Assembly (NCBI RefSeq): GCF_000016985.1
Contig: NC_009633.1
Span: 1,488,001-1,552,000, forward strand
Reading direction: 5' to 3'
Origin: Alkaliphilus metalliredigens QYMF
Lineage (GTDB): Bacteria; Bacillota; Clostridia; Peptostreptococcales; Natronincolaceae
DNA length: 64,000 nucleotides
Shown: piece after piece, positions 20,521 through 40,345 of the stretch
Layout of the letters: the number at the start of each line of letters is the position of its first letter
How positions within the stretch are numbered: the stretch's first letter is position 1
Made by a program: the position numbers and the translations under genes
The notes under the pieces: generated by a model
Database searches by the model: none
Told to the model about the DNA's origin: nothing
The model's input: the letters and a program-made list of their open reading frames with translations, nothing else

Positions 20521-20600
20521 AGTTTTTGGAATGTATATGTAGATTTTATTTGATAAATATGGTAATATGTATAAAAATGCATGGAAGTGAAACAATTAAA

Positions 20601-20686
20601 TAAAAGGGCAAACTTATCGAAAGATAAGGGCGCAAAGCCAAGGGTCTTCATCAATTGATTGATATGACAGCCGGTTGCAGAGTATA
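20601..20686 (+). ncRNA. Cyclic-di-GMP-I (GEMM-I) riboswitch aptamer
   Basis: The hallmark parts are present in order: GGGCAAAC, a P2 stem CTTAT-CGAAAG-ATAAG with a GNRA loop, GGGCGCAAAGCC, AAGGGTCTTC, a variable stem, and ATGACAGCCGGTTGC. This matches the GEMM-I class that binds c-di-GMP. It lies in the leader of the chemoreceptor gene at 20758 and just after the terminator of a c-di-GMP enzyme gene. Confidence 0.93.
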
Positions 20687-34350: not shown

Positions 34351-34386
34351 AAAATCACGCTGGGTCTCGGACCCCGCGTGATTTCA
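34351..34386. terminator. Bidirectional terminator between permease and peroxiredoxin genes
   Basis: AAATCACGC pairs with GCGTGATTT, and inside it GGGTC pairs with GACCC around TCG. It lies between convergent genes. Confidence 0.85.
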
Positions 34387-34420: not shown

Positions 34421-35140
34421 TTAATCTTCAAATGCCTCGCTGACCTTCCAAACCTTCCACACATTACCCACAAGATCTGGTCCAGGCTTCAAGGTTGTTT
34501 TTCCTGGTTTCCAGCCGGAAGGGGCAACCTCTCCACCCTTTGTTTCTCTGACTAATTGAAACGCCTTGACTTGTCTGATAGACTCTTCTACATTTCTTCC
34601 CACAGGTGGTGTCAGTACTTCATATCCTTGAACGTTGCCATCTGGATCTATTATAAATCTTCCCCTTGTCTCTACGCCACTATCCTCATCATATATGCCA
34701 TACATTTTTCCGATTCTGCCATCTTGGTCGGATAGCATCGGATAAGGGATATCCTTATCAATCATTTTGGATAATTCATGATCATTCCACATTTTGTGGA
34801 CGAATACAGAGTCTACACTCATGGATAAAACCTGTACATCTAAGGCTTTAAGCTCTGGATATTTTTCAGCAACTGCTGAAATTTCTGTTGCTCAGACAAA
34901 GGTGAAGTCTCCTGGATAAAAACATAATAATACCCATTTTCCTTTATAATCTTCTAAACTGACATTGACAAATTTCCCCTCATGAAAAGCTGGGGCAGTA
35001 AACAATGGTGCTGGTTTTCCTACTCTTATCATATTTTGCTCCTCCTCTTTTTTCTCAGTTTTTACTGTTTCATGTACATTTTCTTCTGGTTTTGCCATCA
35101 ATTCTGGCCTTACACAACCTGCTTTGATTTCTTCAGTCAA
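34421..35140 (-). CDS. prxU: Selenocysteine-containing peroxiredoxin (AhpC/TSA family), TGA read as Sec
   Basis: Two same-frame halves are separated only by TGA at 34894-34892. The join reads [20 protein letters not shown], so the stop replaces the peroxidatic cysteine of the peroxiredoxin motif PGDFTFVC-TEI (residue 83). A hairpin starts 10 bases after the TGA. The downstream half keeps conserved family sequence ([38 protein letters not shown]) and extends to 239 residues, so it is under selection and not a relic. TTG 35140 has GGAGGT 6 bases upstream; an alternative is ATG 35032 behind GAGGAGG. The enzyme reduces peroxides in the cytosol. Cys9 and Cys73 are the only cysteines. Confidence 0.9.
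34862..34894 (-). promoter_or_regulatory. Sec codon with bacterial SECIS-like hairpin
   Basis: After TGA (34894-34892), TTTCAGC pairs with GCTGAAA around loop AGTT; the loop G lies 19 bases after the stop codon. Position and a G in a small apical loop fit bacterial SECIS elements that recruit SelB. Fold is by eye. Confidence 0.75.
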
Positions 35141-35283
35141 AAATACACCTCCCATTATTTTTTCAAATAGCAATCACACTCATTATAGATATTCTTGATT
35201 AAAAAATACCCATTAAATGACTTTTAAACCCAGGTAATAGGAAGAATTTTCAAAATAGCATCGTGATTCAATAAATATAAAGA

Positions 35284-35362
35284 GCATATGCCTAAAATGG
35301 TTGTTGACATATGCCCAAAATGGAGTATAATTAAAACCATAAAAGGCATATGCCTATAATGA
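35284..35362 (+). promoter_or_regulatory. Promoter with three operator-like repeats (CATATGCC-N-A-AATG)
   Basis: Seventeen-base copies lie at 35284-35300 (GCATATGCCTAAAATGG), 35307-35323 (ACATATGCCCAAAATGG) and 35346-35362 (GCATATGCCTATAATGA). The second overlaps -35 TTGACA (35304-35309), and -10 TATAAT (35326-35331) follows after 16 bases. The third lies downstream of the -10. Repression by a bound regulator, probably the adjacent DUF134 protein, is inferred. Confidence 0.7.
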
Positions 35363-35380: not shown

Positions 35381-35731
35381 ATGCCAAGGCCAAAAAAATG
35401 GAGAAAAGTATGTTGTTTACCGGAAAGCAATTTATTTGGACCATTAACACCACATTATCGTGACCGTGAAATCATTATGATGACCGTTGAAGAATATGAA
35501 GCGGTTCGCTTGATTGATTTAGAAGGCATGAATCAGGAAGAATGTGCTGAAAAAATGAATGTGGCTCGAACCACAGCTCAGAGGATTTATAATGATGCTA
35601 AAAAGAAAATTGCTGATGCACTAGTTAATGGGAAAATAATTAAGATTGAAGGAGGAGATTACAAGCTTTGCAGCGATAGTGAACCCATGTATGAATGTGG
35701 AGGATGCCGAAGACATAGCTGTGGTACCTAA
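35381..35731 (+). CDS. DUF134 helix-turn-helix regulator
   Basis: The 116-residue protein starts [20 protein letters not shown] and contains [20 protein letters not shown] followed by the recognition helix [20 protein letters not shown], all features of DUF134 (PF02001). The tail has CGGCRRHSC, a likely metal site. Such genes typically head clusters of NifX-like and MinD-like genes, as here. It sits behind the repeat-bearing promoter and probably regulates itself and the following operon. AAGGGGG precedes ATG 35381. Confidence 0.88.
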
Positions 35732-35783: not shown

Positions 35784-36152
35784 ATGAAAATAGTAATGCC
35801 AGTAGATGATAAAACAATGGAAACCAGTGTATGCCAATCCTTTGGCCGTACACCTTACTTCTTAATTTATGAGACAGAGACCAAAGAACATACTTTTATT
35901 GATAATAGTGGAGCAGCTAGTCAAGGTGGTGCAGGGATCAAAGCGGCACAGGTGATTGTAGATCAAAAGGCAGAAGTATTATTGACACCAAGATGTGGAG
36001 AAAATGCAGCAGAAGTTATTAAAGCAGCCAATATTTCTATTTATAAAACCATGAACCAATCGGTTCAAAATAATATCAACGCATACAATACGGGGACGTT
36101 ACCCTTGCTAACAGAAATCCATGCAGGATTCCATAATCATGGAGGGAACTAA
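35784..36152 (+). CDS. NifX/NifB-like (dinitrogenase FeMo-cofactor-binding fold) protein 1
   Basis: The 122-residue protein begins MKIVMPVDDKTMETSVCQSF and has GRTPYFLIYETETKEHTFID then GIKAAQVIVDQKAEVLLTPR, matching the Nitro_FeMo-Co family (PF02579). No nitrogenase genes are nearby, so it is of the non-nitrogenase branch, which in other anaerobes includes metal-sulfur-cluster-binding orange-protein-type members. AGGAGG precedes ATG 35784. Its stop is at 36152, two bases from the apparent start region of the next gene. Confidence 0.88.
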   Translation: MKIVMPVDDKTMETSVCQSFGRTPYFLIYETETKEHTFIDNSGAASQGGAGIKAAQVIVDQKAEVLLTPRCGENAAEVIKAANISIYKTMNQSVQNNINAYNTGTLPLLTEIHAGFHNHGGN

Positions 36153-37011
36153 AATAAAAATAGCAGTGCTCAGTGGTAAAGGAGGCACTGGAAAAACACT
36201 TGTAGCGGTCAACTTGGCAGCCATAGCTAAAAACTCTGTTTACATAGATTGTGATGTGGAAGAGCCTAATGGCCACTTGTTTTTTAAGCCTGAACAGCTA
36301 AAACGGCATGATATTTCTGTGAAAATTCCAGTTGTAGATGAAAAGCTTTGCACTGGATGTCGTAGCTGTGTGGCGTTTTGCAAGTTCAATGCATTGGCTT
36401 ACATCAATCATAAACTGATGGTTTTTGATGAAATTTGTCATTCTTGTGGTGGTTGCAGCTTGTTTTGTCCAGAAAAAGCTTTATCCGAAAGGGAAAAGGT
36501 AATTGGAGTGGTTCAAAATGGAAAATCTGAAGATGTCAGGGTCATTTCAGGAATTATGAATGTAGGGGAAACATCAGGTGTTCCAATAATCAAAGAGATA
36601 TTGAAATATGCTAATGAATATCAAGACATTACGGTAATAGACTGCCCACCGGGGAGTGCCTGCACCGTAATGGAAAGCATAAAAGATGCTGATTATTGTA
36701 TTTTAGTAGCAGAACCAACTTTGTTTGGGGTTCATAATTTGAATATGGTGCATGACTTGGTAACGCTTTTTAATAAACCATATGGGGTGGTGTTGAATAA
36801 ATGTGTTCAAAGCGAAAATCCAGCTGAAACCTATTGTACTGAAAAGAATATCAACGTTTTAGGTAAAATTCTTTTTGACAATGAACTGGGGACAATTAAT
36901 TCCAATGGGTTAATTGCTATTAGACAGAGCGATAAATATTTCGACGTCTTCAATCAATTGCTACACAAGGTAAGTGAGGAGGTGCAACATGAAACAGTTG
37001 TTAATCCTTAG
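36139..37011 (+). CDS. MinD/ParA-like P-loop ATPase with inserted 2[4Fe-4S] ferredoxin domain (1)
   Basis: The deviant Walker A motif KGGTGKT follows KIAVLSG, and the ferredoxin insert has CTGCRSCVAFCKFNA and CHSCGGCSLFC-P. A DCPPGSACTVMES switch and EPTLFGVHNL follow. This matches the paired MinD/ferredoxin ATPases that accompany NifX-like proteins. ATG 36139 gives about 290 residues. GGAGGG at 36141-36146 is better spaced for an ATA codon at 36154, which begins the conserved IKIAVLSGKGG, so initiation at a non-standard codon is possible. Confidence 0.88.
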   Translation: MEGTKIKIAVLSGKGGTGKTLVAVNLAAIAKNSVYIDCDVEEPNGHLFFKPEQLKRHDISVKIPVVDEKLCTGCRSCVAFCKFNALAYINHKLMVFDEICHSCGGCSLFCPEKALSEREKVIGVVQNGKSEDVRVISGIMNVGETSGVPIIKEILKYANEYQDITVIDCPPGSACTVMESIKDADYCILVAEPTLFGVHNLNMVHDLVTLFNKPYGVVLNKCVQSENPAETYCTEKNINVLGKILFDNELGTINSNGLIAIRQSDKYFDVFNQLLHKVSEEVQHETVVNP

Positions 37012-37849
37012 CGGCAAAGGTGGAACAGGAAAAACCACCATGGCCACAGCATTCATCAAGCTATCCAGTGCGACAGCTTACGCTGATTGTGATGTGGATG
37101 CACCAAATCTACATTTATTGATGCATCAATCCGCAAAGGCTATAGAATCTGATTACTTTGGTATGCCAAAGGCAGAAATTAATTCTCAAATATGTGTTCA
37201 GTGTGATCTTTGTAGAGAGAATTGTCGCTTTGATGCAATCAATTTCGATGATGGCTATCATGTAGACCCATTTGTTTGTGAAGGTTGTGGTGTTTGTGAA
37301 GAACTTTGTCCTGTAGGGGCAGTATCTTTAAAGCCTGAAAAAGCAGGAGATTTAATGCTATACAAAGAAGATGTTGTCTTTTCGAGGGCCCAACTAAAAA
37401 TGGGCAGTGGTACCTCTGGGATGTTGGTTACGGAAGTTAAAAAAAGCATGAAGTCTGCTGCTGAGGATGCTGAGTTCGCCATCATAGACGGCTCCCCAGG
37501 AATAGGTTGTCCAGTGATTGCGTCCCTCAGTGGTGTTGATATGGTATTAATTGTTGCAGAGCCATCCATTTCTGGAATAAGGGACATGGAACGTATTATT
37601 GAAACGGCTAGGAAGTTTCAAGCAAGAATTGCTGTTTGTACAAACAAATTTGATACCAATATAGAAATTGCTGAAAGTATAGAGGCATTTTGCAAAAAAA
37701 ATAATTTGCCCTTTGTTGGGAGAGTGCCATTTGACCTAGAAGCAGTAGAAGCTATTAATAAGGGGAACAGCATTATAGACAGTGATAGTACTTCAGGTTT
37801 TGCAACAAGAGTGGTTTATAAAAGAACAATGGAATTGCTTTCTAAATAA
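36989..37849 (+). CDS. MinD/ParA-like P-loop ATPase with inserted 2[4Fe-4S] ferredoxin domain (2)
   Basis: ATG 36989 follows GAGGAGGT and overlaps the previous gene by 23 bases. KQLLILSGKGGTGKTTMATA holds the Walker A motif; the ferredoxin insert has CVQCDLCRENCRFDA and CEGCGVCEELCPVGA. IIDGSPGIGCPVIASLSGVD and EPSISGIRDMER complete the fold. It is a paralogue of the preceding ATPase and the two probably form a heterodimer, as paired genes in this context suggest. 286 residues. It acts in the cytoplasm, probably in metal-cluster handling; that role is inferred. Confidence 0.9.
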   Translation: MKQLLILSGKGGTGKTTMATAFIKLSSATAYADCDVDAPNLHLLMHQSAKAIESDYFGMPKAEINSQICVQCDLCRENCRFDAINFDDGYHVDPFVCEGCGVCEELCPVGAVSLKPEKAGDLMLYKEDVVFSRAQLKMGSGTSGMLVTEVKKSMKSAAEDAEFAIIDGSPGIGCPVIASLSGVDMVLIVAEPSISGIRDMERIIETARKFQARIAVCTNKFDTNIEIAESIEAFCKKNNLPFVGRVPFDLEAVEAINKGNSIIDSDSTSGFATRVVYKRTMELLSK

Positions 37850-40069: not shown

Positions 40070-40254
40070 TGATTGTTTTTTATAAATTCTAAATATTTAC
40101 CCTATTTATGTTATTATGTGTTAAAATATAGAAGTGAGAAATTAGTGGAAATTTGTCGAACTAAAGCAGATCTGAATGACAACTCTTAGAAGAGTTTGAA
40201 TGGCTATTAATTCCTAATGGAGGAGTAGTGGTTAAGGGAAGGCGACACAATAAA

Positions 40255-40345
40255 CTTGATAAAGGCAAACTTATTGAAAAATAAGGACGCAAAGCTATGG
40301 ATCTAAGGGGATCTTTATTCCTATGATTGCCAGGTTGCCAAAATA
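40255..40345 (+). ncRNA. Cyclic-di-GMP-I (GEMM-I) riboswitch aptamer
   Basis: GGCAAAC, the P2 stem CTTATT-GAAA-AATAAG, GGACGCAAAGC, GGATCTAAGGGGATC and ATGATTGCCAGGTTGCC appear in GEMM-I order. It precedes the chemoreceptor gene at 40496, which is now split by an IS21 element. It is clearly related to the aptamer at 20601. Confidence 0.93.

Follow-up and report, generated by a model that had tools for sequence, protein, structure and literature searches.

The peroxiredoxin gene that we read on the minus strand of the window (the whole 64,000-nucleotide stretch of Alkaliphilus metalliredigens QYMF DNA that was analysed) encodes, with near certainty, a selenoprotein with selenocysteine (Sec) at the peroxidatic position. 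As such it is an ordinary addition to PrxU, a selenoprotein family already known. Two features of the gene are, as far as the literature was searched, new: an N-terminal arm with a conserved cysteine, and an internal start site behind that arm. The gene thus has two start codons, each with a Shine-Dalgarno (SD) sequence and each conserved among relatives, and dual initiation is well supported by the sequences.

Reading frame, selenocysteine codon and hairpin

The first-pass annotation had placed a peroxiredoxin with an in-frame TGA at 34421-35140; the interval is exact, and the strand, which had not been stated, is minus. The frame opens with TTG at 35140-35138 and closes with TAA at 34423-34421; it contains a single in-frame TGA, at 34894-34892, and the first in-frame Met codon downstream of the TTG lies at 35032-35030. 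The two half-frames join as PGDFTFV-U-ATEI, with the TGA where AhpC-type peroxiredoxins have their peroxidatic Cys, just as had been proposed. The translation likewise contains the predicted 156 residues beyond the TGA and, at its N-terminus (MTEEIKAGC), the 36-residue extension with Cys9. The features discussed in the text are:

34421-35140, minus strand: prxU long form, TTG start, Sec83, 239 residues; 407.9 bits with NF040737
34421-35032, minus strand: prxU putative short form, internal ATG at 35032-35030, 203 residues, Sec47; start codon and SD kept in 100/101 extended relatives
35146-35153, minus strand: SD of the long form, GGGAGGTG, read from the sequence
35033-35140, minus strand: N-terminal extension of 36 residues with the GCVRP motif (Cys9), predicted to be disordered
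35039-35047, minus strand: internal SD, GAGGAGGAG, ahead of the ATG; SD energy -12.3 for the window's own copy
34892-34894, minus strand: TGA, selenocysteine codon at the peroxidatic position, from the read-through frame and the relatives
34864-34881, minus strand: probable SECIS hairpin, seven pairs, loop AGUU, from folding and covariation
34351-34384, minus strand: inverted repeat followed by a T run, likely terminator, read directly from the sequence and not flagged by the scan

The core of the product is an AhpC-type peroxiredoxin (Pfam AhpC-TSA, 129 bits), and its closest solved structures by sequence are 2-Cys-type peroxiredoxins. An AlphaFold model, for which 32 relatives were used, has a mean pLDDT of 77.7, and Foldseek pairs it with plant PrxA, human Prx2 and Salmonella AhpC. 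The fold is that of AhpC and the typical 2-Cys (Prx1) class (E about 1e-19 with human Prx2, 9e-19 with Salmonella AhpC), with which PrxU also shares the PxxxTxxC/U motif. PrxU differs from AhpC, however, in having Sec for Cys, no resolving Cys at GEVCP, Ala for Pro after the catalytic residue, and the Cys-bearing arm. The window protein scores 407.9 bits with the PrxU model of NCBIfam (NF040737, curated cut-off 270) and 197.5 bits with the AhpC equivalog TIGR03137, below its cut-off of 272; together with the in-frame UGA at the last position of PxxxTxxU, the sel genes of the genome and the TGA of its relatives, this bears out the PrxU identity given in the first-pass annotation.

The TGA is kept throughout the family. 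Among the best 80 of 581 relatives from a contig scan (82-65% identical to the window PrxU), it stands at the catalytic codon in 80/80, which excludes chance as the origin of the in-frame TGA. A survey of 398 Bacillota genomes yielded 49 PrxU genes over the NF040737 cut-off, and 49/49 have TGA at this position. TGT or TGC, which had been named as the finding that would speak against Sec, occurs at this codon neither in the 49 genes over the cut-off nor in the best 80 of the 581 scan relatives.

The genome also has the machinery for Sec incorporation, whose absence would likewise have counted against the reading. Matches over the cut-off were found for tRNA-Sec (71.7 bits), selA (631.6 bits), selB (379.1 bits) and selD (401.8 bits), all located at 2.387-2.401 Mb of the single contig of 4,929,566 bases. 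In 14 control genomes, the cut-off was exceeded in 5 for tRNA-Sec, 1 for selA, 2 for selB and 2 for selD, which makes the tRNA model, taken by itself, less specific than any of the other three. The selD match (C1:2387679-2388602, L012) itself contains one in-frame TGA, and the selenophosphate synthetase of this genome is probably a selenoprotein as well. In a second peroxiredoxin gene of the genome (C1:4729482-4729985; L016:1501-2001), the catalytic codon is likewise an in-frame TGA (FTPV-U-STE), and a C-terminal Cys is retained (GGACPINW). The product stays below every NCBIfam cut-off, and no clear hairpin was seen in the 45-55 bases past its TGA.

In prxU, a hairpin with a G-containing loop had been noted 10 bases past the TGA; it extends from 34881 to 34864, with seven pairs and the loop AGUU. 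Folding gave a divided answer. The 30-nt piece folds at -8.0 kcal/mol (z -4.29), whereas three longer pieces (45- to 75-base) reach z values of only -1.3 to -2.0, so that folding energy alone is weak evidence for a SECIS element. The case is made instead by compensatory changes between wobble positions, which were sought in 124 distinct PrxU sequences (131 genes minus 7 copies, the window's own copy being left out). Pair 15-30 forms in 103/124 sequences, against 63.6 in shuffles, and occurs as T-A, C-G, G-C and A-T; pair 18-27 forms in 116/124, against 82.4, and occurs as A-T, G-C, T-A and C-G. Both join third codon positions, and of all third-third pairs tested these two score highest. It should be noted that loop positions 21-24, which are unable to pair in the hairpin, rank third (115 vs 85.9), and part of the covariation signal is therefore due to relatedness or composition. 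Pairs 14-31, 17-28 and 20-25 are nearly invariant and uninformative in this respect, while the loop has U23 in 124/124 and G22 in 113/124 sequences. The hairpin is very probably a SECIS element.

A sequencing error at the TGA, or a broken gene, can be regarded as ruled out: the conservation of the TGA in both sets of relatives (80/80 of the best 80 of 581, and 49/49), the covarying hairpin and the sel genes of the genome leave such a reading practically no probability. That automatic annotation would split genes of this kind, as had been anticipated, is illustrated by a Desulfococcus selenoperoxiredoxin, which a passage of PMC5109826 prints as a pair of locus numbers.

The N-terminal arm and the cysteines

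Every gene of the first set (81/81) encodes a C-x-[RKI]-P motif, in frame and upstream of the core, and Cys9 and Pro12 are invariant in 32/32 aligned proteins. These are the independent counts of cysteine conservation, the 101 extended genes used for the start counts below having been defined by the Cys-Pro motif, so that their Cys is conserved by definition. Exceptions in the wider set are GCKVP (L119) and GCQLVP (L120), and many Deltaproteobacteria-type records read GCARPTGGPVG. The codons of the motif vary synonymously (GGN, TGT/TGC, AGR/CGN, CCN) while the residues stay mostly constant, and the distance from the Cys to the internal start is 26-33 residues (42 in L128).

The scan query contained the arm, so that the best 80 of the 581 loci favour armed genes; in the survey of 398 Bacillota genomes, which is free of this bias, 26/48 classable PrxU genes over the cut-off have the arm. 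It is absent in 22/124 PrxU genes and is therefore not needed for the basic enzyme. These short-only genes of other Bacillota (L125, L127, L129, L130, L132-L139, L141-L148, L126 and L140) encode Sec, exceed the NF040737 cut-off and have no resolving Cys; they are unlike the window gene in lacking the arm and, in 20/22, in having Pro after Sec.

A C-terminal resolving Cys at the AhpC site is absent from the 99 full-length extended and the 22 short-only PrxU proteins. The window protein has GEVAPSGW where AhpC has GEVCP, and on this count is no 2-Cys peroxiredoxin; all 13 AhpC relatives that were read have the Cys at the resolving site (13/13, at +117 to +119). If Sec and the arm are set aside, a single further cysteine is widely kept. 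It is located 10 residues ahead of Sec, in 101/101 extended and 20/22 short-only PrxU and also in 6/13 AhpC relatives, the pattern of the contig scan having included this Cys and so favoured its retention. This Cys, too, could play a part.

The first-pass annotation had suggested that Cys9 could supply a resolving thiol. The conservation of the arm and its cysteine, and the missing C-terminal resolving Cys, lend support to this suggestion; if the long form is made, we favour, with modest confidence, a Cys9 that would resolve Sec. Arm residues 7-34 have pLDDT values below 50 and are predicted to be disordered. The AlphaFold model gives the arm no fixed place and neither supports nor refutes a contact with Sec; a disordered arm could reach the active site of its own subunit or of a neighbour.

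In a tree of the core proteins (72/134 rows, with a root for drawing only), 36/37 extended genes fall in one supported clade (100/98) along with the armless L126 and L140, and the label 'long' requires three changes. As the base of the clade is not resolved, L126 and L140 may either have lost the arm or have branched before it arose; both have Ala after Sec and, at the position of the internal start, an ATG with SD (-10.8 and -8.2). The residue after Sec is Ala in 99, Gly in 1 and Pro in 1 of the 101 extended PrxU, and Pro in 20 and Ala in 2 (L126 and L140) of the short-only ones. The short-only PrxU outside the extended clade thus have Pro after Sec, and Pro also follows the catalytic residue in the 13 Cys AhpC relatives read. 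L124, with arm and Pro, lies outside the extended clade, unplaced. The link between arm and Ala may reflect one single event, and hence would not be independent evidence.

The same layout is found in PrxU of Eubacterium (Peptoclostridium) acidaminophilum, which is 62.8% identical to the window protein and likewise has a peroxidatic Sec, an arm with GCARP, an internal ATG with SD (-13.9) and no resolving Cys; the gene table of this organism gives one PrxU form, of 240 residues. The seleno-peroxiredoxin CLOST_2406 of Clostridium sticklandii, given with Sec84 of 240 residues in a table entry of PMC3091704, is a long form like that of the window, and the entry makes no mention of a second start. 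A protein named PrxU is upregulated in a Sulfobacillus proteome, according to a passage of PMC7409299, and the passages on PrxU in two reviews (PMC13188914, PMC9312934) give the catalytic motif alone. Among the literature matches listed, which comprised titles, abstract openings and passages (including PMC8533274, PMC10298544 and PMC1088965) and few subscription journals, none described a second start or an arm or resolving cysteine of PrxU; the 2001 PrxU paper could mention them. Human peroxiredoxin 4 resembles the long form in its N-terminal extension with an extra cysteine, but is a secreted Cys enzyme with a normal resolving cysteine. We know of no second start for it.

A partner gene that would explain the arm was considered and rejected, no neighbour family occurring in more than 9 of the 81 loci (some flanks being cut). 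The commonest neighbour is a FAD oxidoreductase with the look of an NADH:rubredoxin oxidoreductase (9/81 loci; upstream and on the same strand in 8/9), followed by ABC-type ATPases (7), Mrp-like ATPases (5), and DUF134-like, Fur/PerR-like and three other families (4/81 each), all names being readings of one example sequence per family. ATPase genes of Mrp/NBP35 look are near prxU in the window (36121-37849), and an Mrp/NBP35-type ATPase gene adjoins prxU in Peptoclostridium acidaminophilum (L099). On the plus strand of the window, three CATATGCCTAAAATGG-like repeats at 35285-35362, one of them the palindrome GGCATATGCC, surround a perfect TTGACA-16-TATAAT promoter ahead of the gene at 35381, which we take to encode a DUF134-type regulator; the repeats are likely an operator. 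The same strand carries two c-di-GMP-I riboswitches, at 20597-20682 and 40254-40342.

Two start sites in one gene

The conserved internal start had no place in the first-pass annotation. Of the 101 extended genes, 97 have ATG as the codon 46 before Sec, one has TTG and one GTG, and an SD energy of -8 or lower precedes this codon in 99/101. In L124, the start with SD is a GTG located two codons upstream of the usual internal start. In L037 the ATG is present, yet the SD belongs to a TTG/ATG pair located 2-3 codons upstream. L128 has neither an internal Met nor a nearby start with an SD of -8 or lower, the GTG at -43 reaching -6.3; with its longer linker, and Cys where the Met stands, it is a natural long-only variant. 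An internal start with an SD energy of -8 or lower is therefore present in 100/101 extended genes, L128 being the sole exception, and is found in records named Clostridia to Deltaproteobacteria. A long-form start with an SD of -8 or lower is present in 101/101, where it was chosen as the best of the start codons in a stretch of about 16 codons, a choice that favours a good SD. The window's own copy (L108) was left out of these counts, L131, at a contig edge, was not classed, and L158 gave no motif match.

Several comparisons set the internal SD apart. Other in-frame ATGs have an SD of -8 or lower in only 29/378 cases (first 81 genes), and the internal SD has a mean energy of -12.6, where synonymous redraws give -6.7, although just 44/81 genes pass the synonymous test singly (p < 0.05); the rows are related, and p-values overstate the evidence. 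Glu is encoded by GAG in 125/182 cases in the last 7 codons ahead of the internal start, in 76/286 in the rest of the linker and in 421/1277 in the body. After thinning to less than 90% identity, both the start and the SD are found in 74/75 genes, and in 19/20 at less than 80%. These comparisons suggest that both prxU starts are probably used.

Proposed cycle, alternative readings and meaning

The Sec codon, the covarying hairpin, the sel genes, the conserved arm, its cysteine and both starts are present in the sequences. From these elements we infer a scheme in which both proteins would be made, a decamer would form and Cys9 would have a resolving role. With SelB, tRNA-Sec and the hairpin that lies 10 bases past the UGA, ribosomes would decode this codon as Sec. 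Initiation at the TTG at 35140 would give the 239-residue form, with a disordered 36-residue arm carrying Cys9, and initiation at the ATG at 35032 the 203-residue form without the arm. The Sec selenolate would attack the peroxide and become a selenenic acid. As PrxU lacks the usual resolving Cys, completion of the cycle would fall to Cys9 of the arm or to an outside thiol. In the long form, Cys9 would form a selenenylsulphide with the oxidized Sec, within its own or a neighbouring subunit of the decamer, to be reduced by thioredoxin or another dithiol, while the short form would need an outside thiol as its resolving partner. The proportion of long to short form would then set how the ring is reduced. 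This explanation as a whole (a Sec enzyme, two isoforms, and Cys9 resolving the long one) has, in our estimate, about an even chance of being right.

It is conceivable, if rather improbable, that the long form alone is made, and that the internal ATG and its SD are the relic of an older start, or Lys-Glu codons kept for the charge of the linker. The site does look ancestral, considering that nearly all short-only relatives (21/22) start there (-45 to -47) with a similar SD (mean -13.1), and a long form is what the annotation gives for the E. acidaminophilum gene and the entry in PMC3091704 for C. sticklandii. A relic should decay, however, and the site is kept in 100/101 genes of several phyla, at the nucleotide level and beyond what the amino acids call for; moreover, L128 keeps arm and enzyme without the Met or a strong SD, which means that the linker protein has no need of them. 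The reverse, namely that the short form alone is the working enzyme and the upstream in-frame stretch a translation-regulating leader or an arm that is removed, appears quite improbable. The E. acidaminophilum enzyme is reportedly described as having 203 residues and Sec47, the size expected from the internal start, which counts for this reading, as do the armless PrxU genes (22/124), two of which (L126 and L140) share a clade with armed ones. On the other hand, the stretch and the core have one common frame in 81/81 genes of the first set, and a start with SD precedes the stretch in 101/101; its length from Cys to start varies (26-33 residues, 42 in L128), and the GCxRP codons vary synonymously while most of the residues stay.

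Another possibility, unlikely but to be reckoned with, concerns the cysteine rather than the starts: it may bind a partner, a metal or a membrane, or link decamers, instead of resolving Sec. N-terminal cysteines have such other roles in some peroxiredoxins. The usual Arg-Pro of GCxRP, and the longer GCARPTGGPVG of many Deltaproteobacteria-type records, exceed what a lone thiol would need. Against this stands the absence of the usual resolving Cys in PrxU, which a resolving Cys9 would match; short-only PrxU are without it too, and the match is thus not decisive.

A resolving Cys9 in one of two isoforms may extend beyond this organism. We tentatively suggest, with somewhat less than an even chance of being right, that prxU is a conserved dual-start gene across Clostridia, Deltaproteobacteria-type lineages, Spirochaetes and others, in which long isoforms with the resolving Cys of the arm and short isoforms with Sec alone, both translated from one mRNA, mix in one ring, initiation tuning its reduction. 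Gene tables give one start per gene, and would therefore describe one of two PrxU forms; if both forms are real, laboratory work on the armless form would have missed part of the chemistry. A conserved second start and an arm with a cysteine would help to account for the recycling of a peroxiredoxin that has no resolving Cys at the usual site.
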